Shown in pieces: positions 12,973 to 58,931 of a stretch of 64,000 nt of DNA. The stretch covers positions 6,684,001-6,748,000 of the forward strand of contig NC_089866.1 of assembly GCF_036373705.1 (NCBI RefSeq), given 5' to 3'. The position numbers and the translations under genes are program-made. The notes beneath the pieces were generated by a model. That model saw only the letters and a program-made list of their open reading frames with translations. It was not told the DNA's origin and searched no databases. Numbering within the stretch: the first letter of the stretch is position 1; each line of letters begins with the position of its first letter. Source of the DNA: Amia ocellicauda (taxonomy: Eukaryota > Chordata > Actinopteri > Amiiformes > Amiidae).

Positions 12973-15900
12973 TCAGATCATTCGATTGCGTTTGTGAGTC
13001 GGGGAGTCTGTGATGACATCGCCACACTGGGCTGAGGTCCGCTTCCTAGTGCCAGCATTGTCTAAGTGGAGTGCCATTTCCTCCGATATGAAAGTGTTCA
13101 AGTCCACGTCGTGAAGTCCATTTCTTCTACGGCTAGGGTTGGAGCCACCGCTCACGTGGGTTGGGGAACCCGGAGTACTTGAACGGACACTTATGCTCGC
13201 CATTGCACCACTAAGACCTGAAAATTCAGAAAGGAAGAATATTTAATTGGTTTGATTACATGGCATGATAGCTGGAACATGTCATAGCTGAACAAATTAT
13301 AGTGAGTAACTGTGTGGCTCAATATACAGCTGTCCATAGATTACATTCAACCCACCAAAGAGACAGGGCATGATGGAGTAATGGACAGTCAAAGACCGGA
13401 TTCTAAGTAAAGTGCTTGACTAACTCTAGAACTATGCTCTACTCTGTAAACATGTCCTAGTAGGATTTCTACAAACCCAAAAAGGATCAAGTTGGGGATT
13501 TTATAAGCCAAACTGCATTAACCTGCAAAGTTTTCAGACATGTGCCCATACTCCCTTTGATAACATTTAGTTTATTTATAATATTTGAAAACTCTCTTAG
13601 TATCAGATGCTCGTCCAGGCTACCCTGCAATGGTTTCTAATGTCTTGCCCTCTCCAGTGAACATCACTCTGGTTTCCTCCCACTATCTACAGAGGCCACA
13701 CACCCAGCCTGAATCCGTGTGGACACTTGTGTTCAGATCAACACAGGAAACAGCCGAGTTCCAGGGGCTCCAAGGTATTTCCACTGCCGACTTTGACAAC
13801 AAAACCCTCCCCCTCTCAAAGAGCATCACTGTCCCTTCCACAGAGATCAATCTCAGTAGTTACCCTAGTAAGCCCTAATCAACAGGTGTATTACATGGTT
13901 ACCACTGTGGTGGGTGTTACGCTTTATACACAGACAAAGCAGGTTTTAATGCAGCAACTTGTGCTGCAGGTTTAATTTCCTGCCTTTTAATGCTCATATA
14001 ATTAACAAATGTGATGTGTATCAAGAGCCTGTGAAGACTTCATTTTAGACACAGGCATTTAACACAAGTCTGCCTTAATAATGCCTAAACAATTTTTAAG
14101 CAAGACTACACTTCTCATATGCAAAACTTTCTTCCAGATATCTCTGAAGTGTAACAAATGTTATCACAGTCACTAGCTATTTTTATGAACACTGATTCAT
14201 AACTATAGATACAACTGCTATAAATGACTTCTTTCAAAAGAGGTTGTAGTAGTTTCAGTATGTACCAAATGTATCATTATGGTTAGAGCTTTTAACTTCC
14301 TTCGACAGATCTGACTGGCAATAAACTGCAATGGCAATTCAATTACAGAGAAAACTGAACTAGTATTTGAACAAGATGATGCAATTCACTTCAGTCTTTA
14401 ATTATATTTTAAATTGAGCAACACGAAGTTTTCTAATTGGATTACTTATAGTGTATCATAATTAAATCCTGAACTGAATTTAAGAGTTTCCAAATCATGC
14501 ATGCAAAATGTACAGCACAAAACTACCAGTTATGCTGCATGTACGATCCCTTGCTTAATACATCCTGTGCATAACAGAAGGTTTCTATTAAGTGTTATAA
14601 AAACCTGTCAATTTACCAAATTAAACAATGCAGTTTGGCTGGAAAATGCAGAGAACTGTTGATCCACACAAAAAAACTGCTTAATTCTTTATTTTAATTA
14701 GGTTACTAAGTAAGTGAGATGAAAAAAAGACAAAAGCAGTATTGGGAGAGACTACCACAGGGGGAAGGAAACAAAGTCAGATAAATTGCTCAGATTTTGA
14801 GAATTTATGGAGAAGTGCTCGTCTAACTAAAAAACAAAGATCTTCTCTAGCCAATTTACTATTACCATGTCTCTACATTTTATAGATCATAACTAAAACT
14901 GATCTTTAAATTTTATACATTTACATCATTCAAACACACACACACATTTTACCCATGGCTGTTAAATCTGTTGTGTCTGAGGGCGATGGCTTTCCAGCTC
15001 TACATCTGAAAAGCAGTTTGTGATCAACAGCCATGGCTGGAGAAGTGAAACGTGCATTTACCGATTCCACCGTGAAGAAATTCTTCGCCTTTCCATGCAA
15101 TTAATGTTTAAAAACATTTTTTAAACAGATCCTCAAAGCCTTGTATTGAAAAGTAGAACTCAAAGCTTGGGTACGACCTTTTTCACCCATTCACTTATTT
15201 ACTTGCAGGAATTGAAAAGGGTTGAAATTTACCATGCAAAGCTATGGCTTCTCGGAAGGGCTGTAAATCAGTCTCTACGGATGAGCTAGTTTCTGTTGAG
15301 GGTGCCCGATTCGGCGACACTACAGTCAGTCTTGGTGGAGCTCTAGAAGTCCTTGGTGGTGGTGCTTTCCCACACAGGAAACTGATCAAGTCCTCTCTGC
15401 GAATTGTTCTCCTTCGCTTTTTAACCCATGCCAACACATCCTTGTTGCGGCGCTGATAGCCAATCTGAATTCCTAGGTCATAACTTCTTTGATGTGCTTC
15501 CATGCTTTCTGCAAAGTGAAGAACAAAAAAACAAAACAAAAAATGATTGTGTTGTTTTGGTCAAATGTATCAGATAAATCTTTATATTGAAACTTTGAAG
15601 CTAAATGTTGAAAGTTATGAAAGACAATTCCTTCCCTTTTGTGTAAAATCAATGTATACCTATACTTAAGCTTAACATAAAATATAATTTCATCAGGTCC
15701 TAACATTTTACATTAGCAGAGTTCAAATCAGGAGGTGCTTCAAATACCCCACAGCTTAAAGAAATCCAAAATGGCTCTCTAATCGTGTGTCCAGCTGGAG
15801 AAACTGCTGGTGCAGCTCCCCTATTGAGGAGCAATGCATGAGTCATGCAAACCTTTGAAGGAGGATCCATGACGGCTCCATTTTACCAACTCAAGCAATA

Positions 15901-17609
15901 CAAAAACGAGCGGATTTTCGTGCAGCCCACATAACTTCACACACTACAGGGAGTGTGCAACTTTTACACGCAATAGAGACGGTTTTATTAAACAGCCTAA
16001 CGTGGCGGCCACAAACGCCCTTTCCATCAATTCCCATCATTAAGATTTAAATCTGACGTATTTATATATTCATTAAAAAAGCATTCCCGTCTTCTCCCAT
16101 TTGTCCAGCTATGCAGTTTAAAAGCACAATCTGGAGAGGTTTTACTCCTTCAAAAGCATCCGTCAACCTACACTTCATATTAGCGTCTGAGCAAATAAAC
16201 ACTGCAGAGCTGTGGAGCATATCCCCCCAGACGCCAACAATGGAAAGCGGCTTTGACTCAATGTGGGTTTAAATGCACATGTGTATAAACACACACATGC
16301 ACTGTCAGACACATGGGCACAAAGCGGACACGTCCGGCTGCTCGGTCCCGGTCCAGACAAAGCGGCTGACAGCAGTCAAACCCTGCCGTCCACACCGTGC
16401 ACACCATCGGAATGTGCTTTTCATTTTCAAACCGATTTCCTTAAATAGTCTACATCCAAAATGAACCTGAAATTGTTTTTTCCTCCAAAAAACAGCACCC
16501 CAGTGGTAACGAGGCGGACATTTACCTTTATACAGGTTGGTGACAGCTGTGGCAGCGTTTTGAAAAGGCACCCAAAGCGAGAGTCCCTGCTGTTGACACA
16601 CTCGGTCTGTGGGGGGAAAGCAGGCAAAGCAGTTAAAATAATGAAGATTTCCAAAGCATTATGAACACTCAGCCATATTTGATTTCGCCATTTTGTGTGA
16701 CCTCTCCCAATGCACTAACTCAATGCGATCTTTTTCACCGAATTGGAGACTGTGATCCAGGACTACAGCAAGCCCGGACCACAGCCTCGGTGGGACTTCA
16801 ATAAACTTAATCTGGCCGTAAAACACTTCTGACAACCGAAATGTTTCCCCCGTCCTTCCCTGCCAACGCCATTTTGTTTTGAACCACTTCTTTCTCCACC
16901 AAAACAAACGTCTACGTTGTTTATTTCGTCGACATGGGACACGTCTTGCTTTTCAAGCTCGGTGTTGTTTTATGAAAGCCCCTTCAATTAAAAAAATACA
17001 AAAAAACTGAAAAAGCACAGAATAGATATTTTAAGATCGCGATCCACTACGCCATTTTGTTTTGCGTCTATAGTTCCAGTCAGCTTTTTTTTTTTTTTTT
17101 TTTTTTTTTAAACCACCAGTCGCCATTTAAGATTTATCCCCAAATCTTTGAAAACAACGGTTTTCCTACACAAAGACCCCGAGGAGACCGTGTAGCCCTG
17201 GTATAACAGGACACTGCCCGAGTTATTTATGCCCAGACAACTCCTCCCAGGACTTCGCCATTTTGTTCCCGTTTCCTTCACACACAAACACCGGGCAGCT
17301 GTTAAACGGACACCAGTCTGTCTCCAGCAAGCAGACACCGAAATAACAAACCCCAATTCAATAAATACACCGGGGGAAAACCGTCCCCCGCCCTCGGCAC
17401 CGCCACCGACTACACAAACTATCTACATTTATTATGGTTTCCTTCGCCATTTTGTGCAGTTGGGCCGCTACCCTGTCGAATATGAATCTATAATCATAAT
17501 TACAATTTTTTAAACAATACGACCATCCATATACATATATCAACAACACTCTTTGTCTCGTTTCGATCTTTGTTGGTTGCCCTCTCACGGGGTGTGGGTC
17601 ATTTATATT

Positions 17610-17647
<38 letters not shown>

Positions 17648-17887
17648 ATTTGAAAATTTATTAACGGTCTTAAATGATAGTGGACTCGGACCTTTGTAGA
17701 GCTGCGCGACGGCCGTGGCCGAGTTCTGGAACAGGTGCCACAGCTTCTGCGGGCCCGGGTCCGGCTCCTCCTCGCCCGGCTCCTCTTGCTCGGCCTCTGC
17801 CAGGCACTGCCGCTCCCATTTCGAGAACCAGTGCTCAGGGCCGTGCTCCTGGATCTCCGACTCCCCCTCCTCTTTCTTATCCTCCAT
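12973..17887 (-). CDS. hapstr1: HUWE1-associated stress-response protein (C16orf72 orthologue)
   Basis: Coding exons on the minus strand: 17887-17692, 16606-16526, 15508-15233 and 13217-12973. All junctions follow GT-AG and every codon phase joins, giving 265 aa (about 275 in human). The N-terminus (EIQEHGPEHWFSKWERQCL), the centre (GLSLWVPFQNAATAVTNLYK, then GIQIGYQRRNKDVLAWVKKR) and the C-terminus (SPTHKRNRMI) are nearly identical to human C16orf72. The exon 1 acidic stretch is shorter than in human. HAPSTR1 is known as an oligomeric partner of the E3 ligase HUWE1 that tunes stress signalling and acts mainly in the nucleus. There is no enzyme motif. The exon 1 donor (GTCCGA) is weak after the GT. 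The gene diverges from USP7 as in mammals. Intron 1 holds a striking motif array, annotated separately. Confidence 0.97.
15835..15849. promoter_or_regulatory. 15-bp palindrome with AP-1 core in HAPSTR1 intron 2
   Basis: TGCATGAGTCATGCA is a perfect palindrome around a central G. It contains the AP-1/TRE core TGAGTCA with MAF-like flanks, and the next bases complete an octamer-like ATGCAAA. It lies 5' of exon 3 in intron 2. Function is inferred from motif only. Confidence 0.4.
16686..17454 (-). promoter_or_regulatory. Array of YY1-type motifs in HAPSTR1 intron 1
   Basis: The exact 10-mer CGCCATTTTG (plus strand) starts at 16686, 16867, 17050, 17256 and 17445. A partial copy, CGCCATTTAAG, starts at 17121. 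Read in the sense of HAPSTR1 each is CAAAATGGCG, which fits the YY1 consensus AANATGGCG. All copies share one orientation. The gaps between successive starts are 181, 183, 206 and 189 bp. Flanking bases differ beyond 1-6 positions, so this is not a simple tandem duplication. One more exact copy lies at 24471-24480 near the USP7 promoter. YY1 often binds just downstream of start sites, so a role in HAPSTR1 transcription is a reasonable inference. Confidence 0.6.
17086..17109. repeat. Poly-T tract
   Basis: An uninterrupted run of about 24 T lies in HAPSTR1 intron 1, between the third YY1-type motif and the partial copy. Confidence 0.9.
17603..17647. repeat. (TA)n microsatellite
   Basis: This TA-rich tract starts about 43 bp inside intron 1 of HAPSTR1 from the exon 1 donor. 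Confidence 0.9.
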
Positions 17888-18420
17888 CGCCGAGCTTTAG
17901 TCGGTCTTTTATCAAAAGACAAATGGTTATTGTTTTGTATTTTTATGTTTCGTTGAGGGGACCTGGGCGGAAGAAAAAAAATCTCCCGTCACGGACTCAT
18001 TAATGTCTGTTGTTTCACGCCGGCACTCATACAGGCCAACTTTCTCCCGAGGACTCCCAAACAAACTGAATCGATTACGCCACGGACCCGAAGCTATAAT
18101 GGAAACACAGTACCCTGCTGGCCCCCTGGTGCCCGCCTCTTTAGCGCCATCCTGCATCGGGATTGGCCACAAGGGCTCCCCTGGCGTGGTTTTTGAATGT
18201 GTATTCGAGGTGTGATTGGACAGGCGAGACATCTGTCCATAAACGTCACCAAAGAACGCCCGTGTAGCTAGGCAGAGCAGTTTGAAGAATCCGCTTTCTG
18301 CGCAAACTCACTAGTGCCGCCGTGCTGGACCACTGACAGCTGCGGTGGTGACGTCATCGTCTGTGACCCTCCGCGGAGAGGAAAACAAACATGTCACGTG
18401 TGGACAGGTGTTAAAAACAC
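17888..18420 (-). promoter_or_regulatory. HAPSTR1 promoter and 5' UTR region
   Basis: CpG-richer DNA lies directly upstream of the HAPSTR1 ATG. In the sense of the gene there are two CCAAT boxes (ATTGG on the plus strand at 18162-18166 and 18215-18219, 53 bp apart). A perfect CRE, TGACGTCA, lies at 18349-18356, and an E-box-like TCACGTG near 18393. No TATA box is seen at a useful distance. The arrangement suits a housekeeping promoter driven by NF-Y and CREB/ATF factors. The start site is not determined. Confidence 0.5.
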
Positions 18421-21400
18421 TTCCTGGGTTCCCGCTTTGCGCCGGTAAGTTTCCCAGTGGTGTGCGTGTCTGCTTTTAAAACCAGTACTGCAGCATTATG
18501 TTTTTATTTTATTTTATTATTTAACAATATTGCTGTGAGCATTTTAAAAATAGCTGGTAGGACGTTGGAGATGTGACGCGTTTACGAAATATTTCACCCT
18601 GTGACATTAGGGTGTTTTTAAATAACTATTATTATTATATTATAATTAATATTATGCATAATAATAATACTATTGTTGTTGCCATTGCTGCTGTTGGTGT
18701 TGTACTCATTGTTCACTCTTTTGGCCAGTCATGCCGATACAGTTATTATCGTTATGGTGCAGAAATTGGTTGGTCTCTTACCGTTAGAGGGAGTGTTGAC
18801 CGTTGCAATGCCTGTGTACTTTCCTGATGATTGGGTTTGTGGTCCGACATCTTGTGTGATAATAACCCCGTTACAGAAACCGCTGTAGCCAATGTTAAGA
18901 TGCACGTACACACAACGATTTCGGGGTTTAATGTAATTAGCCTCAATCAAAATAAAGCTGCGATAGTTTACCATTACATTACTATTTATCTCATGATGTC
19001 TAACTATTTCATCTATTTTGCTGCAAGCAAGATTACGATGTAACTTTTGTATTGCCTACCAATTTCTCAACGCTGTAATGAGCGTAGACTAGTGCTTAAC
19101 CAATCCAGGACAACATCAGACACGTCGAGACAGGAACTAAAAGTTGCCTGAAATAATTACATTTCTAAATGTAAACTTCAAAATCGTGTCCTGTAATTTC
19201 AGGTTGACCAGAATTTATGGATCTTGTTAGTCACCCTTTTTTTTTTCCAGTGATGCCGAAACACGATCTCCTATCCAGTCAATTTTGTCATTCAACCTTA
19301 ATTGCCAATTTCGACAGATTTGCGAACTCGCGGAAGTTATTGATCAATTAAGCAATTAACTCGTTCAATTAAGGGAATTCTGGTAATTGGAAAAAGGGTA
19401 GTTTTCTTTTTACCAAATCTCTAGATAACTTAATTTCACAAATCACCTGCTTAATCACATTGAAATGGTTACAGATGTTACGAAATTTGATAAAGGTTAC
19501 CTATAAAACTTGTTGGATAGGGCCCCTCGAAGATTGGGTTTGGGCAGCACTGCTTTAATCCCTTAATAATGCTAATCAGTATTGGGTTTTTTTAATTAAA
19601 TTGCAGATACTTATATTTAACTTTTATTAATAATGCCCCCCCCCCTCCCATATTTTAATTTCTATTCACATCTGTTTACAATATGTTTCTAACAAAATGT
19701 AACCCATAAAATACAGAATACATAAAAACAATGTACTATTATTAGGCTGTATAGGTTTATGTAATGTAAAACTGATTATAATATATTTATAGTCAATATC
19801 AGAATTAGAGTAAAACATCAATAATTACTGCTATCTGTTTACCCCCATGACTCCAACACTATGACTATACTTATTGTAGTTCCTTTATCCAGTGCAAATG
19901 TAAGCTATTTCATAATCATAACATAGAACAAGTTTATATCCAGGCATTATGCTCTGACATTATCATCTTTCAGGATCTTCTATGCATTCTGTCACAACTA
20001 GCAGTAACTGATCCAATAAGCATCATAATGGATTATAGTATGATCATTTACTATTAAAAGAATAAGGTCATTCAAGGTCAGAAGACACCTATTTTGTAAT
20101 GGGTTGTAAGGGTCTTGGTAAACACAGGGCTTGATTCAAGTCTCTGGTTTTAACCTGGTAAGCCTGCTAAACATACTGGTCAGCAGGCAGTGTGGATCTG
20201 CAATAATTCACTGATGCTCTGAGAAAGTGCAGCACCTAATATACACAAAAGCATGTTCTTGTCAGTGTTACATTGAATTATTAAATGATCTTTTATCCAT
20301 GACTATATGTGTAAAGATATTGAAATGCAATTAATTAAGGAAAAATAAACATACATTTAACAGCATTAAAAAAAATGTAACTGTGATGTACAGGTTTGTA
20401 GTTTGCTATTAGTGGGTGGGTCGATGTTTTGATTTAACCCTACCCATGGTCTTTGCAGATTAAAAGATATTTGTGAAGTGAATAACTGATTATTAATTTC
20501 AAATAGCATCATATTTTATTTTAATGTGTTCCAATGTAATATAAACTGATTGTTGTATGCATTTTACAGATAAAATAGTAGTACATTATTATATACTGAA
20601 AGCTGAACATTGACTTATTTTGTTGTATTATCTGTTTGGACTAGAGTAAAATCAATCTATCCCTGATTTTTTCTGCATTCATTATAATGTTTACTTCTGA
20701 CTTTATAATACCTTTGAATAGTGAATATTACTTTCTACTTTTGAAAAGGCTGAGCTTATTCATATTTAAATCATAATTAGACTGTAAATGCGTGTTTACA
20801 CTTGTACACTTGTATTATAACACACACCCTGTAATCCTCTACAGAAAATAATAGGATACCTGATAAATCAGAACTGTCACTCTTACAATCACTCTCTAAT
20901 GCCTTGGCAGGTTATGACATTATTATTATTTTTTATTTTTTTCTAGCACTGTATGTTAGAAAGGGGCATGTTTATCCAGTGTTTAGTATCGCTGTTAATT
21001 TAGCAGTGGCCGGATTTGTTGGGAGAAAGGATAGTGTCCAGTTCAGCACTAATACTTGCTGAGAGTCTAATGCAAATGGCCTCTCCTGATCACAGCAGCC
21101 CGGTCTTGTGATCTTCCCTCTTGGCTGGTGAGATCACATCTCCTGCATACCCTTGCAATCTCCCAGCCTGCACTTTTGTAGTGCAAGAGTAGCTCGCTTC
21201 ATGCAGGATTATGCTTATACAGGCTGGTGATTTAAAGTAGCAGTGCTGTAATGTAAGATTTTCTTACGACTGAAACTAGTCATGCATGTGTATGCTTGTT
21301 GCTGGATTTTTGTTGTTGTTATTTTGTTTTTTCAGGTATGAATTACTCCCCCAAAAAAATACCTCTATCTCCAAACTCTTTCTAAATCTTAATGTTGATC

Positions 21401-24420: not shown

Positions 24421-25328
24421 CGAGAGCTCAGACCTCCATGCGGATGTGACATTTCAGAGCAGAGCGCGGCCGCCATTTTGAGTTTGTGCCTCAAACTGAA
24501 CATCACAAACAGAGGGAGAGGGAGAGAGACTCGGACTGGGACCGGGCTCAAGAGAAATTACACAGCGAATAAGCCTTTTAAATGCGAACCTTATTATCAT
24601 TTATTTATATAAATATAGTCCGGAATTTCAGAAAAGCCAAGCCGAAAACAGACTCGGGTATCGACAACGACTCAATATTGATGAATTAGTGCGATTCCAC
24701 ATTAGACCCGGTTTTGAATGGATAGATTTTTTCTTCGCTCTCCCCGAGTCGAGGGACAGTCGGAGGAGCAAACGGACTGGAAATATAGCCGGGAAATCTG
24801 CCTTTAAATCCTTTTAGTTAATGCATGAGCTTTAAAATAAATATAATTTTGCATCAGAGAATAAATTGACTATATCCAGGTCAGCTTTTCTCCGGTGGCA
24901 GGTTGTGGTGTTGAACTGTATTTCTCTCACCTCGCCTCTTCTTGCCCCATTTTTCAGGGGTAAAAGCCGGATTGATTTTCTGTTTGGGCTTCCTAGCGTT
25001 GAAGCCCTACTTATCCCCCCCCCCCATCGTCAGCGACTTGTACCCCCTTCCAGGCGCCGAGATTGGGCGAATAGCGAGCAAATACGTCCGCGTTTCTCTA
25101 CCTGCTCCCCCGCCGACCTCCCCTCCGCAGCCCCCGGCGCCGACAACAGGAAAGGCCGAGGTCGTCGTAGTACAGGCCCAGCCGCCCAGGCTCGACCTGT
25201 CTTCCCCTCCTCCGCCTTCCCCAACCCCCCATCTCCTGTCCCAGACTCGGCTCCCCCCGGAACCAGCATCGGGAAAGGCCGAGGGGAACGAAGACAGCCG
25301 GCACCATCACACCACAGCGGCCGCCGAC
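24421..25328 (+). promoter_or_regulatory. USP7 promoter and 5' UTR region
   Basis: GC and CpG content rise from about 24.42 kb to the USP7 start codon. An exact YY1-type motif CGCCATTTTG lies at 24471-24480, next to CGCGGCCGC. The last 400 bases before the ATG stay open in the USP7 frame but contain no in-frame ATG, so they are read as 5' UTR. The transcription start is not determined. Confidence 0.5.
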
Positions 25329-41178
<15,850 letters not shown>

Positions 41179-50470: not shown

Positions 50471-53400
50471 CTACAACTCCTCCTTCTTCTCCTTCTCTTT
50501 TGCTTTCTCTGCCTCGGCTATTTTTTTTCTCTCCACCTCCTCCTGCAGGGGAAAGATCGTAAATAGACAATGGTGTGAGGGCTTGTAAGGAAGGTGCTTC
50601 AACTAATGTGATTGAACCATTTCATTTGGTTAATGTAAGTTGCTGGGTCGGTTGTGCAGCACGAGAATATGCTTTCAGCCTCTTAGATCAAGCCAACCGA
50701 GAGTTATTCAGATGAGAGCTCAAAGTTGTCGGAATAAATTGTCCCCAAAGGAAGCAAACCGGTTCAATATATTCAAAACATTTTTTGCCTTCAGCAGTGA
50801 AATCTGTCATCTTTAAATGCTTTTGTTTAATACCTGGATTCCAGGCACACAGAGAGCAGAATATCTTCACACACAACACGATCCATTTGTATTTTTAACG
50901 TCACCCACCTTTGCCTTTTCTTCCTTGGCTAATTCCACTTCACTTTCAACAAACTGAACAAAGTCTTCTAACGTTCTTTTTCCAGAATAGGGAACCACCT
51001 AGGAGACCGTGGGAGAAGATTGGAGGTAAAATCCCCATGCTGTAAATAGAGCAACTTAAATCTCTAACATTCACGTAGTGCAAGTTTCAAGGAGATAGTC
51101 AGGGGAGGTGCATTTGTTTTTTCAAGCACAAAGAGTTGATAACCCTGTGCCGAAGAGCTATTCTACTAGGCCAGTGATGAACAGAGAGTTGAGGGTGATG
51201 CAGATGGAGGATGTAGCTCTGTGAAGCTGGGGAACTATCGCAGTTGTGAGGAATGTTAAGGGCATCTTGAAAACCCTGTACTGATTGTTTAATTGCATTT
51301 AGGTGTTTTCCCCCGTCACCTGGCATTCACCTGCAAACTTCAAGAGGCCTGTACAAGGGAGTATTGCTAGCTCAGGATTTCACTCAAAGACATGTAGTGC
51401 AGACCTTTTCACCGTATACCGCTGGGAAGAACTTGAACATGGGGTTGCGCTCATGCAGCAGAGTGTGAACGTCGTTGGCTGTGCTGTCTATCCTAGCGAT
51501 CACCACAGACTCGTGGTTTTCGTACACCTTCCCCACTTTCTCCCACACAGGAAACAGATCCTTGCATTCCTGAGACCATGGCTTATCTGCAGACCACAGA
51601 GCGCAGGGAAGTAGGTGGAGTGAGGGAGTAGAAGAGAAAAGGCATTTTTGAAGACTGAGTATATTTCTGGTGGAAAATAAGTTATATCCTCATAGATTAC
51701 TTTATAATGACTTATATTTTGATTGGGATAAAGACCTGTGGGGAAAATGTTAATTTGTAAATGTAAACAGAGATTTTTCTTTCTCTAGTTTGTGTGTTTA
51801 TTTATATGTTACTTAATCAGTTCATGCATCCACCGATCCATTAATGTCATTGAATGTGTTTAAGGTTCCTATCAGTGGTCAAAAGGGGACTTTTATAAAA
51901 TCAAGATTAAGGTGTTATTGCTATTGGCATTTTGTGTGATCATCATCAACAGCTAGTGAAAATGTATTAATCTGAAAGTACAGTACTTGGATTACTAAAA
52001 TGTAAGTGACACGGCTTGGATTTGGAAGCAGACTTACAAAACATGACAAAAACGTTCCTCTCATCATTGAAAGCAACTCTTTCAAAATTCAGGCCCACAA
52101 GTTCCTTCACTGGTTGCTTGTCCCAGTTCTCAGGAATGGGTTGACTATCCAGCTTCGGCTGTGAAAGCATTAAACAAATTCAAGCTGAAAATGTTTAGTT
52201 GCAAGATGACAGCTAGCACGTAACTAAATACATTCTCTTAAGACATAAAACTTAAAGTAATACTGCAAGTAACGTCCTTCTTAGAGTTATCGGTTGCTGC
52301 AAAATGTGACTCTGGTGGTGAGCTATTATTTTGGTTTATTTTTATCACCATACAGTGAGGGGAAAAAAGTATTTGATCCCCTGCTGATTTTGTACGTTTG
52401 CCCACTGACAAAGAAATGATCAGTCTATAATTTTAATGGTAGGTGTATTTTAACAGTGAGAGACAGAATAACAACAAAAAAATCCAGGAAAACGCATTTC
52501 AAAAAAGTTATAAATTGATTTGCATGTTAATGAGGGAAATAAGTATTTGATCCCCTATCAATCAGCAAGATTTCTGGCTCCCAGGTGTCTTTTATACAGG
52601 TAACGAGCTGAGATTAGGAGCACTCTCTTAAAGGGAGAGCTCCTAATCTCAGCTCGTTACCTGTATAAAAGACACCTGTCCACAGAAGCAATCAATCAAT
52701 CAGATTCCAAACTCTCCACCATGGCCAAGACCAAACAGCTGTCCAAGGATGTCAGGGACAAGATTGTAGACCTACACAAGGCTGGAATGGGCTACAAGAC
52801 CATCGCCAAGCAGTTTGGTGAGAAGGTGACAACAGTTGGTGCGATTATTCGCAAATGGAAGAAACACAAAATAACTGTCATTCTCCCTCGGTCTGGGGCG
52901 CCATGCAAGATCTCACCTCGTGGAGTTTCAATGATCATGAGAACGGTGAGGAATTAGCCCAGAACTACATGGGAGGATCTTGGTGACTATGGTCCCAGCT
53001 GCCTTGAGATCATTAACAAGAAAACAATTGGTAACACACTACGCCATGAAGGACTGAAATCCTGCAGCGCCCGCAAGGTCCCCCTGCTCAAGAAAGCACA
53101 TGTACAGGCCCGTCTGAAGTTTGCCAATGAACATCTGAATGATTCAGAGAACTGGGTGAAAGTGTTGTGGTCAGATGAGACCAAAATTGAGCTCTTTGGC
53201 ATCAACTCAACTCGCCGTGTTTGGAGGATGAGGAATAACCCCAAGAACACCATCCCCACCGTCAAACATGAAGGTGGAAACATAACGATTTGGGTGTTTT
53301 TCTGCAAAGGGGACAGGACAACTGCACCGCATCAAAGGGACGATGGACGGGGCCATGTACCGTCAAATCTTGGGTGAGAACCTCCTTCCCTCAGCCAGGG

Positions 53401-53962
53401 CATTGAAAATGGGTCGTGGATGGGTATTCCAGCATGACAATGACCCAAAACACACAGCCAAGGCAACAAAGGAGTGGCTCAAGAAGAAGCACATTAAGGT
53501 CCTGGAGTGGCCTAGCCAGTCTCCAGACCTTAATCCCATAGAAAATCTGTGGAGGAAGCTGAAGGTTCGAGTTGCCAAACGTCAGCCTCGAAACCTTAAT
53601 GAATTGGAGAGGATCTGCAAAGAGGAGTGGGACAAAATCCCTCCTGAGATGTGTGCAAACCTGGTGGCCAACTACAAGAAACGTCTGACCTCTGTGATTG
53701 CCAGCAAGGGTTTTGCCACCAAGTACTAAGTCGAAGGGGTCAAATACTTATTTCCCTCATTAACATGCAAATCAATGTATAACTTTTTTGAAATGTGTTT
53801 TTCTGGATTTTTTTGTTGTTATTCTGTCTCTCACTGTTAAAATACACCTACCATTAAAATTATAGACTGATTATTTCTTTGTCAGTGGGCAAACGTACAA
53901 AATCAGTAGGGGATCAAATACTTTTTCCCTCACTGTATATGTCAGTTATTATTATTATTATT

Positions 53963-54040
<78 letters not shown>

Positions 54041-57000
54041 GATAAAGAAATACCTTTGCTTTGCCTGCAAAGAAATCCTGGCAGAAATCTCTCACATTGC
54101 GCACAGTGACCTCGTCTGCTGGCATCTGGTACTGCATGTTGTCCGTCAGGTTCAGCAGTCTGACCGCAGGTGTGTCCACGTCGCGCACCTGGAAATACTC
54201 AAAGATCCGCCCGTTCCTGCTTTCGTCCGTGTCAATGAGGATGAACAGCAGCTGGGTGAGACAAAATACTAATGATTAATAATGCCAGGTCTTCAGCCTA
54301 ACTCAGACATTCACTGTAGTTTAGCATACATTTGATGAAGTGTAGAAAAATGCAGCTACTCGGTTATGTTTACGATCTACCTGTATTATTATCTATATCC
54401 TATCCTATTTGAATGCTGTATTACTGGAATGTCAATGTACATTTCGGCTTTCAAGTTCACCGTGATTAATTAAACCAGAGGATTTTTTTTCATGTCAGTT
54501 TAGTTAATTGATAAAAACTTAGACCTGGAGGGGCTAGATTTAACTAATCATAGATTTAAGTGGACCAATTAAGCAAATAGGATTTTAACTGTGTTGATTC
54601 AATGAGACCTAACGTCTGCTGGACTGCAAGACCAGGTTTGGACATGGTTTAAGATTTACAGGGCTGTAGAGACACAGTTTATTAATATATTTTTTTCAAT
54701 TTTAAACCATTAACTTCTGAATTGATTCAATTATTGGGCTTAATTACATTTAAAAAAAAATGCCTTCAAGTTATTCAATAATTGATGATTTAGAAACAAG
54801 CATGAATGTGGCTCTCCAGGAATGGGATTAGAGACTATTGCTCAACCAAATTTAAATTACCCATAAAACCTACAGGGCTGCCTCTCTCCAGGAACAGAAG
54901 TGAGTTTCACTCTTTGAGTTGGAAGATATGTCTATGAAATTACCTTGCCCCTGAATTCAGCAGCAGTGCTTTCAAAGGTTTCGTAGAGGTCTCCAAAGTC
55001 TTCTGCACTCTTGTTTGCAAACAGTAGGATGTGAGTGGTCACGAGAGAGCCAAACACTTTTATTGAAGTCTAGCAAAAACAAACACAAACAAGCAAGATG
55101 AGATCAGCGTCATGGAGCTCCACGGCTGTGCTGTGTGGCTCGGGCGTGATGTGAATGTTTGACACCCACCTCTCGGTTATATTCTGTCACCAGGTCCATT
55201 TCATACACTCTTATGAACTTCATCAGACTCTCTTTGGTTGTTTCGCTGGAGATTTCATAGTCCGCAAATTTTTCAAACTGGAGTGAAAATGGATAAAGTT
55301 ATTTAAAAATAACAATCAAAGCTTAAGCTGAATCATATTTCTATTCTTAGAGTAGAAAACAAGTACTCTAACAGAGTACTTTAAAAGGAAAATAACTAAA
55401 AGGATACTGTAATCTCTTTCTGGTTTTGTTATTCAAATTAAGACAATAGCCCACACCTCAAAACAAAGGTCAGTTTTAAAGTCTTGAATTGATCTAATGG
55501 TCTTAAACCCCCACTGGGGTAGAGAAAGCAGAATGGGATGTGAAGTGATGGGGCAACGGGGTCTTAATGACTTTGTGGCCTTTACCTTTTTAAATAACAG
55601 GACTATGTCTTTTGTGACATTAAATTTATTAAAGACATTCTTATTCTTGGTCACTCCAAATGGCAGATCCGGGATATCCATAGCTGCTTCGTAAAATACT
55701 TTCACTGCCTCTTCTTCAAGATCCTAGAGCCGGAAAAATTAAAATAACAACAAAGTCAACAGGAAAACAAAGTTATTATAAGTTATTATAAGTCTATAAT
55801 CATTTTACAGCTACGTTCAGGGGACTTCAGTAAACCAACACGCACACACAGTTCTTACTGGGCTATTATTGTGTGTCAACTGTTTCCTTGTTCATTTATT
55901 TGGGATAGTGGGTTACTTCCTTGAAACTGCTATTCAATTCAAAAGTTACCTTAAAGAAGCCGAGTATGACCACATCCTCGACCTTCACAAAGATCTCTGC
56001 TTGCCTGCTGTCTTTGATGTGCTCAGCACTGTGGCCAGTCCTCCTCTTCAGCCAGGTGATGATGGAAGAGGCTGTTCTCAGCACTAAGGGACACCAAAAA
56101 AATATAAAAAATACAGTATCATAGTGTCTAGGAAATAAAAACTAAATATGTTTGGCCACCTAGTTAGCATTCTCTTAGGTTGCCACTCTTTGCTGTTTCT
56201 TCTGACAAAGAAGTCAGTTTGAGCTCATTAAAAAGTAGAGTAATCTGAAGGAAAAGTGTGCTTTGGAGTGAAGAAATGTGGAGGCAAGAGAAAGCACTTG
56301 ATTGGCAGAAGTTAGAAGACAGCTAACTGGTAAGGAAATGGATGTGGGTCCAGCAGCATTGTCTTCAGTGTGATCCATATTGTACCTGCATGAAAAATGA
56401 AGAAATTAATCAGTACCTGGGCAGATAATCGGATGTTCTTTATCACCCGAAATGAAGAACTTCAGGGCTGGATAGTCTGTGACATTGAGCTCCTTGGTGA
56501 GGTCCTTTTCTTTGGAGACGTCAATCGTCCCCAGGCGAATTGTGGAGGACTCGTTCCTGAGCTGGGCGGCTGCGCTGGTGAACTCCCGAGTCAAGCCCTG
56601 CGATTCTCCCGAGAGAGGAGCATCTATGGGGACGACACAGGGCAATGTGTGTTATTGTACATGCAAGGTTTCCAAGAAATTCCTGGCTTGTTTGTGTTGT
56701 TTTTACTGCAGGAAACGTCACCTATAATTTGTATGAGGTGCTTCTACATAGACACACACACTGGAGTCATTAACAATCTTTAGGTGTTCGGAGAGAGCAA
56801 CTTTGCTCTGAATCTAACTCATAACCCTTACCCTTGTAAGAGCAGTAGCATGTGGTGTACGGAGCAAGAATATCAATGACCAAGACCAGACACTTGATAA
56901 GAGGTCCCACAATGCTCTCGTTTGGACTAATAAACTCGGCACTAAACCTTGCTGGGTTTGATCTTATCAGGAGTTGGGCTTGATAAAGCATGTTGACTGT

Positions 57001-58038
57001 TACACTTAACTTTTCAATAAGGCTTTGTACATCTGGAAGTGGAAACAGTTAAGTTTGCTTTTCAGCTTAAAGATAGTGAGAATGAATGCCATGGAAATGC
57101 TTCTGATATATTGTCTGTAATTCTTTATAATTTATTATCATTAGATCAGGAGGGCCAACTCTGTTCTTGGAGAGCCACAATCCTGCAGGAATTACAGGTC
57201 TTTAAATCACCAATCACTGGATACCTTAACACGTGGAAAATTAACACATGGACAAATTAAGCCCAACAATTGGCTTGATACACCACTTAATGATTTGGAT
57301 AAAACAAAAATCACTTGATGTATATGTTTGCTTTGCTCGAGTGACATTCTAAAAGCCACTAAAGCAAAAAATAAATATCAATGATTTGGTTAGGTCGAAC
57401 ACATATGTAACCAATATTATATATAAGAACATCTCTGCTTAACTCCTGTGTAATGAAGTTGTAATATCATCTATTGTGTTTGCATCAGAGGACAAAGGAA
57501 TATTTGTAAAAAACATAATTGTCAACCATACTTCTTGTGCAGAAGAACTTAGACTGGCAATAGATTAACAACAAGGAATAACGTTTGCTCACTGGTGGCT
57601 TTACAGTATAACTTTAAATTCAATTACATACATTCATTTAGTTCTCATAGTTTTCTTGATATCCATGTTTCAAATGAAAAGCAACCTGTGAATGACAATG
57701 TGCCATTCAAAGTGCGGTTTCATTCTCTTAGCCTATCCAAGAGAATCAGAAAAGTGTATCTTTACTACCTGTAATAAAAAAAAAATCCTTGTGTGTTCTT
57801 GTATAAGGCAGAGATAGAAAGGCACAGATTCCCTGTACTTACGAAAGTTCACCAGCAAATGCTTATGCTGTTTGATCGCCTGCTCAAAGTTGTTCTTGTT
57901 CAGCTCCAGAACCCCCTTCTCTTCCTTGATTTTAATGCCTTTTGCTTTCTTTTTCTTGGAGGCTTTGCTGTCTGTGTCTTGCGTCGCGGCAGCCAGGACG
58001 CAGACTGTGACGAGCAGGAAAAACCAGAGCACCTTCAT
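50471..58038 (-). CDS. pdilt: Protein disulfide isomerase-like, testis-expressed type (PDILT)
   Basis: Coding exons on the minus strand: 58038-57843, 56623-56417, 56083-55950, 55723-55586, 55277-55170, 55069-54944, 54251-54054, 52158-52038, 51586-51405, 50998-50909 and 50542-50471. They total 1,572 nt, all in frame, giving 523 aa. A signal peptide ([20 protein letters not shown]) and a Lys-rich segment precede four thioredoxin folds a-b-b'-a'. In the a domain the usual WCGHC is LSGES (Ser70, Ser73), so both cysteines are lost. In a' it is WSQEC (Ser414, Cys417), an SxxC site as in mammalian PDILT. The protein ends in KEEL, an ER-retention signal. The b domain (ILGFFKDLEEEAV) also fits PDILT best. 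PDILT is a redox-inactive chaperone in mammalian spermatid ER. Without CxxC sites this one should not oxidise or isomerise disulfides. The exon 9 donor (GTCTGC) is weak. A Tc1 element sits in the intron between 54054 and 52158. Confidence 0.93.
52353..52556 (+). repeat. Left terminal inverted repeat of the Tc1 element
   Basis: It pairs with 53735-53935. The outer direct repeat lies at about 52363-52381 and the inner one at about 52536-52556. Confidence 0.9.
52582..52678. repeat. Long hairpin in the Tc1 leader
   Basis: Arms 52582-52627 and 52635-52678 are almost perfect inverted copies (CAGGTGTCTTTTATACAGG...), with a short loop of about 7 bases. It lies between the left terminal repeat and the transposase ATG. 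It would form a strong stem in DNA or in RNA read from either strand. Confidence 0.9.
52721..53729 (+). pseudogene. Tc1 transposase, broken
   Basis: The start ([20 protein letters not shown]) carries the paired-like helix-turn-helix that binds the terminal repeats. The DDE catalytic signatures remain: [20 protein letters not shown] and [11 protein letters not shown]. Several breaks kill it. A TAG stop at 52955-52957 sits where CAG (Gln) is expected. The 36 bp at 52982-53017 are inverted. The frame shifts between about 53300 and 53345: NITIWVFF reads in one frame and [15 protein letters not shown] in another. The last part, to the TAA at 53727-53729, is open. No active transposase can come from this copy. 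Confidence 0.95.
53735..53935 (-). repeat. Right terminal inverted repeat of the Tc1 element
   Basis: This is the complement of the left terminal repeat, with inner and outer direct repeats. It is followed by the TA duplication at 53936-53937. Confidence 0.9.
53946..54041. repeat. Palindromic (TTA)n(TAA)n(TTA)n microsatellite
   Basis: TTA units turn into about 20 TAA units and back to TTA, so the tract can fold on itself. It starts 10 bp after the Tc1 right end. It stops about 10 bp from the splice donor of the PDILT exon ending at 54054. Confidence 0.95.
54470..54860. repeat. Decayed interspersed repeat, unclassified
   Basis: Words such as CCTGGAGGGGC and GGACCAATTAAGC at one side and GTGGCTCTCCAGGAATGGGATT at the other resemble the copies near 19236-19560 and 57140-57290. 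It lies in a PDILT intron. The class is unknown. Confidence 0.35.
57140..57290. repeat. Interspersed repeat fragment, unclassified
   Basis: CAACTCTGTTCTTGGAGAGC followed by CACAATCCTGCAGGAATTAC and then ACAAATTAAGCCCAACAATT is the wording of a short repeat common in fish genomes. It lies in PDILT intron 1. It has no coding capacity. Confidence 0.45.
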
Positions 58039-58931
58039 CGTTGCTCCGCAGGACAGGAGAGGGAAATTGAGTTCAGACCACAGCCTTTGGATGTGGTGGT
58101 GGTAATAAAAAGAGAAAGAAAAAAAGAAAAGAACAAAAGAAATCTAACGTGGGCTTCACTGATTGTTCTGAGTTGCCACGTGAGTAAGCTCAGTTTTTTT
58201 CCCTGATAAGAGTGTGTACTTTGGTAATGGGATTAATCAGTCATTTCGTTTTACTCTAACAGTTTAAACAAGATGCAGAAGCAAGGTGACTCCACATAGT
58301 AACAGTCGAGCTGTTTCAGGGGTTTGAGTGGTGCTGTGTTTTAAGAAAAGAAGTTTGCAAAATATTTAGTGATTTCCCCACAAAGGAGAGGGGAATGTAT
58401 TGTTGGAGATGTACTTACTGGATGCTGTAGGGAGGTGGATGGATTTCAGGGTGGAGGGGAAGCTGCCATCCCAAGAACTAATCTGGCATCACTCTTGGTA
58501 TGCCTGACTCCTTCTTTTACCCAGCACCTGGGCCAATCATGGGAGCACTGCAGGTCAGGTGCTGCCACCTGCTAATTCATTCTCCAAGGCTTCTTTCAGG
58601 ATGTTATAACCATCCTATCACCGCACCACAGGAAAACCAAATACTCCTATTGTGCTCTTTGGAGAATCAGGTACCATAGGAGAGGACATTAAAATCCCAT
58701 TGCTTAGTATTTCATGCATTTTAGATTTTTCAACCTGCAGGCTTTTTATTAACATCAGTGCAGTTTGTTTCATAACCATGATGCGTGACCGGGGACTCGA
58801 ACTCTGAGTTGTAGAGATTTGTAGATCCCACAGAAACCTCGTAATCCTCCACTTCCACTCATGTTTTAAGAAGCACTTGTTTCCCCCCGTGAGACCCTTA
58901 ACCACGCCCAGGGTTGTGACATATTTGGCAT

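Follow-up and report, generated by a model that had tools for sequence, protein, structure and literature searches.

Why does the first intron of one gene of Amia ocellicauda carry five copies of a YY1-type motif, all on one strand and at nearly even intervals, and what could they do there? The sites were analyzed within a window of 64,000 nucleotides (64 kb), the whole stretch of DNA examined, and their sequence, number, orientation, gene context and CpG richness are direct observations. The minus strand of the window encodes a TAPR1-like protein with a match to PF15251 (Pfam E 5.1e-75, for a query of 185 residues joined by hand from three exon translations), and we take TAPR1 to be HAPSTR1/C16orf72. 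The initial annotation had named this gene as HAPSTR1 and had placed the motifs in its intron 1; the PF15251 match agrees with the first assignment, and all five sites indeed lie inside 17691-16607. Exon borders were placed from the protein reading together with splice signals, not from RNA. On the minus strand, the coding part of exon 1 runs from 17692 to 17887, intron 1 from 16607 to 17691 (1085 bp, from protein-level exon joins) and exon 2 from 16526 to 16606; exon 3 has its first base at 15508, and the C-terminal part of the coding sequence is found at about 13.2-13.0 kb. HAPSTR1 is a gene of stress-response control that is expressed broadly, and we know of no imprinting of it.

Intron 1 has a CpG observed/expected ratio of 1.01 (16611-17692), against 0.43 for the window, but its G+C content is 0.41, and it is best described as CpG-rich rather than as a classical CpG island. 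The promoter region of the gene is CpG-rich as well. Exon 1 ends in AAG, followed by GTCCGA; this 5' splice site (17686-17695) departs from GTRAG and looks weak when judged by eye. The sole GTRAG of the intron is 103 nt in, past an in-frame stop at 17609-17611.

The 10-mer CGCCATTTTG occurs in five exact copies on the plus strand, starting at 16686, 16867, 17050, 17256 and 17445, with start-to-start gaps of 181, 183, 206 and 189 bp. Every copy, position and gap given in the initial annotation was recovered, and the word common to the five could be extended to the 11-mer CGCCATTTTGT, directly 5' of which both plus-strand bases are A or T in 5 of 5 copies. In the HAPSTR1 sense (minus strand), each site reads ACAAAATGGCG and then two A/T bases, and the 10-mers start 237, 426, 632, 815 and 996 nt from the 5' end of the intron. 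Beginning with the site nearest exon 1, the minus-strand sites are located at 17445-17455 (sense CACAAAATGGCGAA, 237 nt into the intron), 17256-17266 (AACAAAATGGCGAA), 17050-17060 (AACAAAATGGCGTA), 16867-16877 (AACAAAATGGCGTT) and 16686-16696 (CACAAAATGGCGAA, 79 nt before exon 2).

All five match AAnATGGCG and are predicted YY1 sites, as had been proposed; the complementary form, CGCCATnTT, is the YY1 consensus as printed in PMC3680475. A weaker core at 17121-17130 (minus strand, sense TTAAATGGCG; CGCCATTTAA on the plus strand) is on the same strand as the five main sites, out of register with them, and misses AAnATGGCG by one base; the initial annotation had left it out. Clusters of the Peg3 type have 4-10 first-intron sites in one orientation, a range stated for imprinting control regions (PMC5526879), and the intron examined here has five, all sense. 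The shorter word ATGGC is found seven times in intron 1, always in the sense direction, and GCCAT is not found there at all. Across the 64-kb window there are 19 CGCCAT/ATGGCG cores, seven of which fit CGCCATnTT; five of these seven are the array sites, in a 1085-bp intron that makes up 1.7% of the window.

Other sites of this kind, and other genes, were noted in the same window. A core at 18145-18153 (GGATGGCGC, in the HAPSTR1 sense and one base off the YY1 consensus) lies in the presumed start region of HAPSTR1, close to CCAAT and TGACGTCA words. The neighboring gene on the plus strand has an N-terminal reading frame from about 25.3 kb and is presumably USP7; an ICP0-binding domain of USP7 falls within 38231-38554. 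The sixth copy of CGCCATTTTG in the window stands alone near USP7, at 24471-24480, as the longer motif with GC flanks (minus-strand CAAAATGGCGGCC), predicted to be a more classical promoter-type YY1 site; it is antisense to USP7, the presumed start codon of which follows after about 0.9 kb. A further consensus match, CGCCATTTTT at 26742-26751, is also antisense and lies in the presumed first intron of USP7. Farther along, three plus-strand ORFs at 52604-53729 are apparently the remains of a Tc1/mariner-like transposase (the third, the only one scanned, holds a DDE_3 domain), and minus-strand ORFs at 51384-58143 resemble what we take to be a protein disulfide isomerase gene; two of the three that were scanned had thioredoxin-fold matches, both below the Pfam cut-off.

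Could base composition or chance produce such a cluster? Dinucleotide shuffles of the whole window contained on average 0.08 copies of CGCCATTTTG, and 0 of 100 reached six. Intron 1 itself, dinucleotide-shuffled 2000 times, had a mean of 0.004 copies and never more than 1; in the 1000 of these shuffles in which all complex 10-mers were counted, no word occurred more than 3 times (a count reached in 3 of the 1000). Among 10-mers in the window, after prior removal of 29 low-complexity ones, only CGCCATTTTG and its one-base shift have more than three same-strand copies within 1 kb. With five copies observed and at most one in 2000 intron shuffles, chance is excluded for the count. The wider proposal that chance, composition or the relic of a motif-carrying transposon explains the array strikes us as scarcely credible: for the count nothing speaks in favor of it, although for the spacing chance could still play a part. 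As to a transposon, the only matches listed when the intron was compared with the window by blast were a T tract and a TA repeat, and a search for structured RNA gave no Rfam family at gathering score in 15500-18500, which likewise argues against a relic. The array is real and non-random and, by its sequence, of YY1 type.

The spacing of the sites is a separate matter. The gaps among the five are more even than random placement would give (P ~2e-4, by a test picked post hoc). With the same post hoc character, P is 0.003 when the ends of the intron serve as borders, 0.097 when the seventh ATGGC is included, and 0.016 with the 17121 core; the evenness is therefore weaker if that core is counted as a sixth site. 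The longest gap contains a T25 tract (17085-17109, plus strand), the removal of which gives gaps of 181, 183, 181 and 189 bp, again a post hoc view. Helical phasing was considered and rejected, as the mean vector was 0.15-0.57 over periods 10-11 (n=5), with no consistent phase. An old duplication, selection or luck could each account for the regular intervals, and we claim no function for them. That the spacing itself has been selected, with one YY1 site per nucleosome linker throughout intron 1 and YY1 setting a phased array of nucleosomes along the 1.1 kb that follow exon 1, appears improbable to us; if it were so, the spacers would be free to vary in sequence but not in length.

A more concrete origin for the regular intervals would be a tandem array of great age, in which a unit of about 180 bp with one motif was duplicated long ago and the spacers decayed to near randomness, the motifs being retained. 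The even spacing would then be inherited, the T25 tract having stretched one gap, and such an origin is compatible with YY1 function; the gaps of 181, 183, 181 and 189 bp that remain without the tract are what it would lead one to expect. A simple tandem repeat of recent date is ruled out, in agreement with the initial annotation. In intron 1, Tandem Repeats Finder reported nothing beyond the T tract and the TA repeat, a repeat search of 14000-20000 found no direct family longer than 27 nt, and 18 of 20 flank comparisons were at shuffle level, with at least 23 of 200 shuffles scoring no lower than the observed pair (3 and 7 for the other two). The flanks had also been described as different, which holds for these 18 comparisons and less well for the spacers, the four of which, untrimmed, are slightly more alike in register than when rotated (in a rotation test that preserves composition, the observed sum was equaled or exceeded 3 times in 2000). 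No unit was recognizable to the repeat finders, and the spacer alignments were mixed.

In more than one form the alignments lean toward common descent. Under three global scorings, with the T25 tract kept or shortened, 0-18 of 1000 rotations matched the observed likeness. Of 146 random frames, about 1 reached the untrimmed z of 2.99 and about 16 the trimmed z of 1.77. (For this calibration, which used one scoring scheme, 150 frames were drawn and those at the locus dropped.) The likeness is carried by units 1, 2 and 4, which taken together gave z of 3.95, 2.04 and 3.13 after trimming, a set chosen afterwards among four triples. Units 1 and 4 share CAGCAAGC and TTCAATAAA at lags of 534 and 535 with T25 removed. 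Against this, units 2 and 3 resemble each other less than rotations do (z -2.1 to -2.8), the effect is gone when unit 5 is included (312, 357 and 267 of 1000), and cutting 12 bases from each spacer end gives 40, 245 and 40 of 1000. Eight of ten spacer pairs were above the 5% shuffle level, with 4.0% and 4.6% for the others; 55 of 500 shuffles matched the total of the ten pairs, and the local score was null (906-947 of 1000). The frame was also moved to 989 further positions, filtered for G+C and simple repeats; 47 of the sums there equaled or exceeded the T25-free value, and 264 did so for the value with T25. With 20-base windows, one of four settings of the periodogram, a period of 178 ranked top of 240; the other three settings favored other periods, and with motifs masked the period 182 had z of -1.67 to -0.03 in all four. 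We read the in-register likeness as a faint, unproven trace of what may be decayed homology. Given this trace, a decayed duplication of about 180 bp is a possible origin of the array, if an unlikely one, and the trace bears on where the array came from, not on whether it works.

What the array does is best approached through genes in which similar clusters have been studied. We think it moderately probable, largely by analogy with these genes, that the sites form an orientation-dependent activator acting from inside the transcribed region. YY1 would most likely bind the five consensus sites as DNA in the CpG-rich intron, all of them pointing with transcription, and the bound YY1 would most likely boost HAPSTR1 transcription from within the gene, as in Peg3 intron 1 and the UbC intron. 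The array may also help to hold the intron 1 region free of DNA methylation. YY1 is reported not to bind its motif when this is methylated (PMC11602158), and a CpG observed/expected ratio of 1.01 fits an unmethylated intron without showing such a state. Consistent with this reading, the 11-mer is identical in the five sites while most flanks and spacers are at shuffle level. As in UbC, the predicted consensus sites lie within an intron near the start, the intron here being deduced from protein-level joins. YY1 sites are described as favoring the downstream side of starts (PMC11269187). In reporters, the Peg3 cluster gave 1.7-fold activation in the forward direction and none in reverse (PMC2615030), and a mouse with seven Peg3 sites mutated was interpreted as having lost an activator, with sex-dependent effects; methylation encroached in its sperm, and imprinting held (PMC5526879). 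Two YY1 sites in the UbC intron, both in the same sense as the HAPSTR1 array and one of them CAAAATGGCGGC, are needed for full expression, and this intron fails when shifted upstream (PMC3680475). The five-site cluster in the first intron of the YY1 gene is likewise required for promoter activity (PMC2743690).

Some observations do not favor activation. The array sites are without the GC tail of the longer YY1 motif seen in UbC and at 24471, the tail being A/T here. Knockdown of YY1 and half dosage raised Peg3 expression (PMC2615030, PMC5526879, PMC4361396), a response that points to a repressor and disagrees with what mutation of the Peg3 sites showed. In a human study, starts that go up after YY1 loss typically carry YY1 sites further downstream (PMC11269187), so that the direction of the effect is uncertain. 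The same Peg3 response to knockdown (PMC2615030, PMC5526879, PMC4361396) would agree with a silencer or Polycomb-type element, in which repeated YY1 sites recruit repressive complexes, and the human PIK3C2B first-intron element with its 25 YY1 motifs is reported to repress reporters and to recruit PRC2 (PMC3689693). Its motifs, with GCCATCAT, are in 25-bp tandem repeats, unlike the sites of the array. HAPSTR1 is moreover a broadly expressed gene with a CpG-rich promoter region, and we hold silencing to be very improbable here.

Alternatively, the sites might mainly promote removal of intron 1, with its weak-looking donor, rather than initiation, as a form of intron-mediated enhancement linked to splicing. 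They are all sense, they span the intron up to 79 nt from exon 2, and the donor, AAG/GTCCGA, departs from GTRAG. The YY1 sites of UbC are said to favor splicing; their mutation raised the unspliced fraction about 1.8-fold, and the enhancement required splice sites (PMC3680475). A single other gene is, however, a thin precedent, and the strength of the HAPSTR1 donor was judged by eye; we regard this explanation as rather unlikely and prefer an activator of transcription.

Has such an array been noticed before? In open-licence papers, covered by their titles and the opening parts of their abstracts, no such array was found for HAPSTR1 or C16orf72 with YY1, which fits the array being undescribed, without proof; the open-licence literature on position-dependent YY1 motifs likewise gave no match. 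Clustered YY1 sites have been searched for genome-wide in the published ECMFinder work. Three copies at intervals of 168-198 bases did not occur in a viral contig collection, and the exon 3 peptide of HAPSTR1 had no relative in 8 viral or 323 prokaryote candidate stretches, as expected there. The array is a known type of element in a gene where, as far as the literature was covered, it is undescribed, and its even spacing is unusual. If YY1 binds, there would be a Peg3-like array of one orientation outside mammals, in a gene without known imprinting, and such arrays would be separable from imprinting; the intron would also be a small system in which to study how transcription is set by the number of YY1 sites in an intron, their orientation and their spacing. 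Since HAPSTR1 acts in stress-response control, a strong booster within its intron would matter for the dosage of the gene.

Comparison with known YY1 clusters shows how far the likeness goes. The first introns of Peg3 and of YY1 itself, cited in the initial annotation, are valid precedents, but that list was too narrow, as the first introns of UbC and PIK3C2B belong to it too. Loci reported to have clustered YY1 sites include Peg3, Nespas, Xist and Tsix (PMC3563663). In Peg3, an 11-bp YY1 element is repeated, always in the same orientation, within a 2.5-kb CpG-island first intron (PMC2615030). Its cluster (CSE2) resembles the HAPSTR1 array in its first-intron location, CpG-rich surroundings, six to seven sites in mouse, single orientation and identical core (PMC2615030, PMC5526879); the likeness lies in the sites sharing one orientation, not in their direction relative to Peg3 transcription. 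In contrast to HAPSTR1, Peg3 is imprinted and has the core GGCGCCATCTT, and its sites are scattered irregularly over 2.5 kb with spacing that is free among mammals, several of them being imperfect in other mammals; the HAPSTR1 sites are denser and evenly spaced, and we do not propose that they control imprinting. The YY1 gene also has five YY1 sites in its first intron, in most vertebrates examined, but these lie within about 100 bp, in mixed though conserved orientations, and are autoregulatory (PMC2743690). UbC shares with the array the sense word CAAAATGGCG, a short 5'-UTR first intron (812 nt) and broad expression (PMC3680475), but has two sites rather than five, the second being GTTATGGCG. 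In PIK3C2B many YY1 motifs are packed into about 1 kb of the first intron, as here, but in tandem-repeat form, with the GCCATCAT core and acting as a silencer (PMC3689693). The promoter monomers of mouse L1 Tf contain repeated, synergistic YY1 sites in tandem units (PMC11602158); these are true tandem monomers of a retrotransposon, whereas the HAPSTR1 array is without a recognizable repeat unit.
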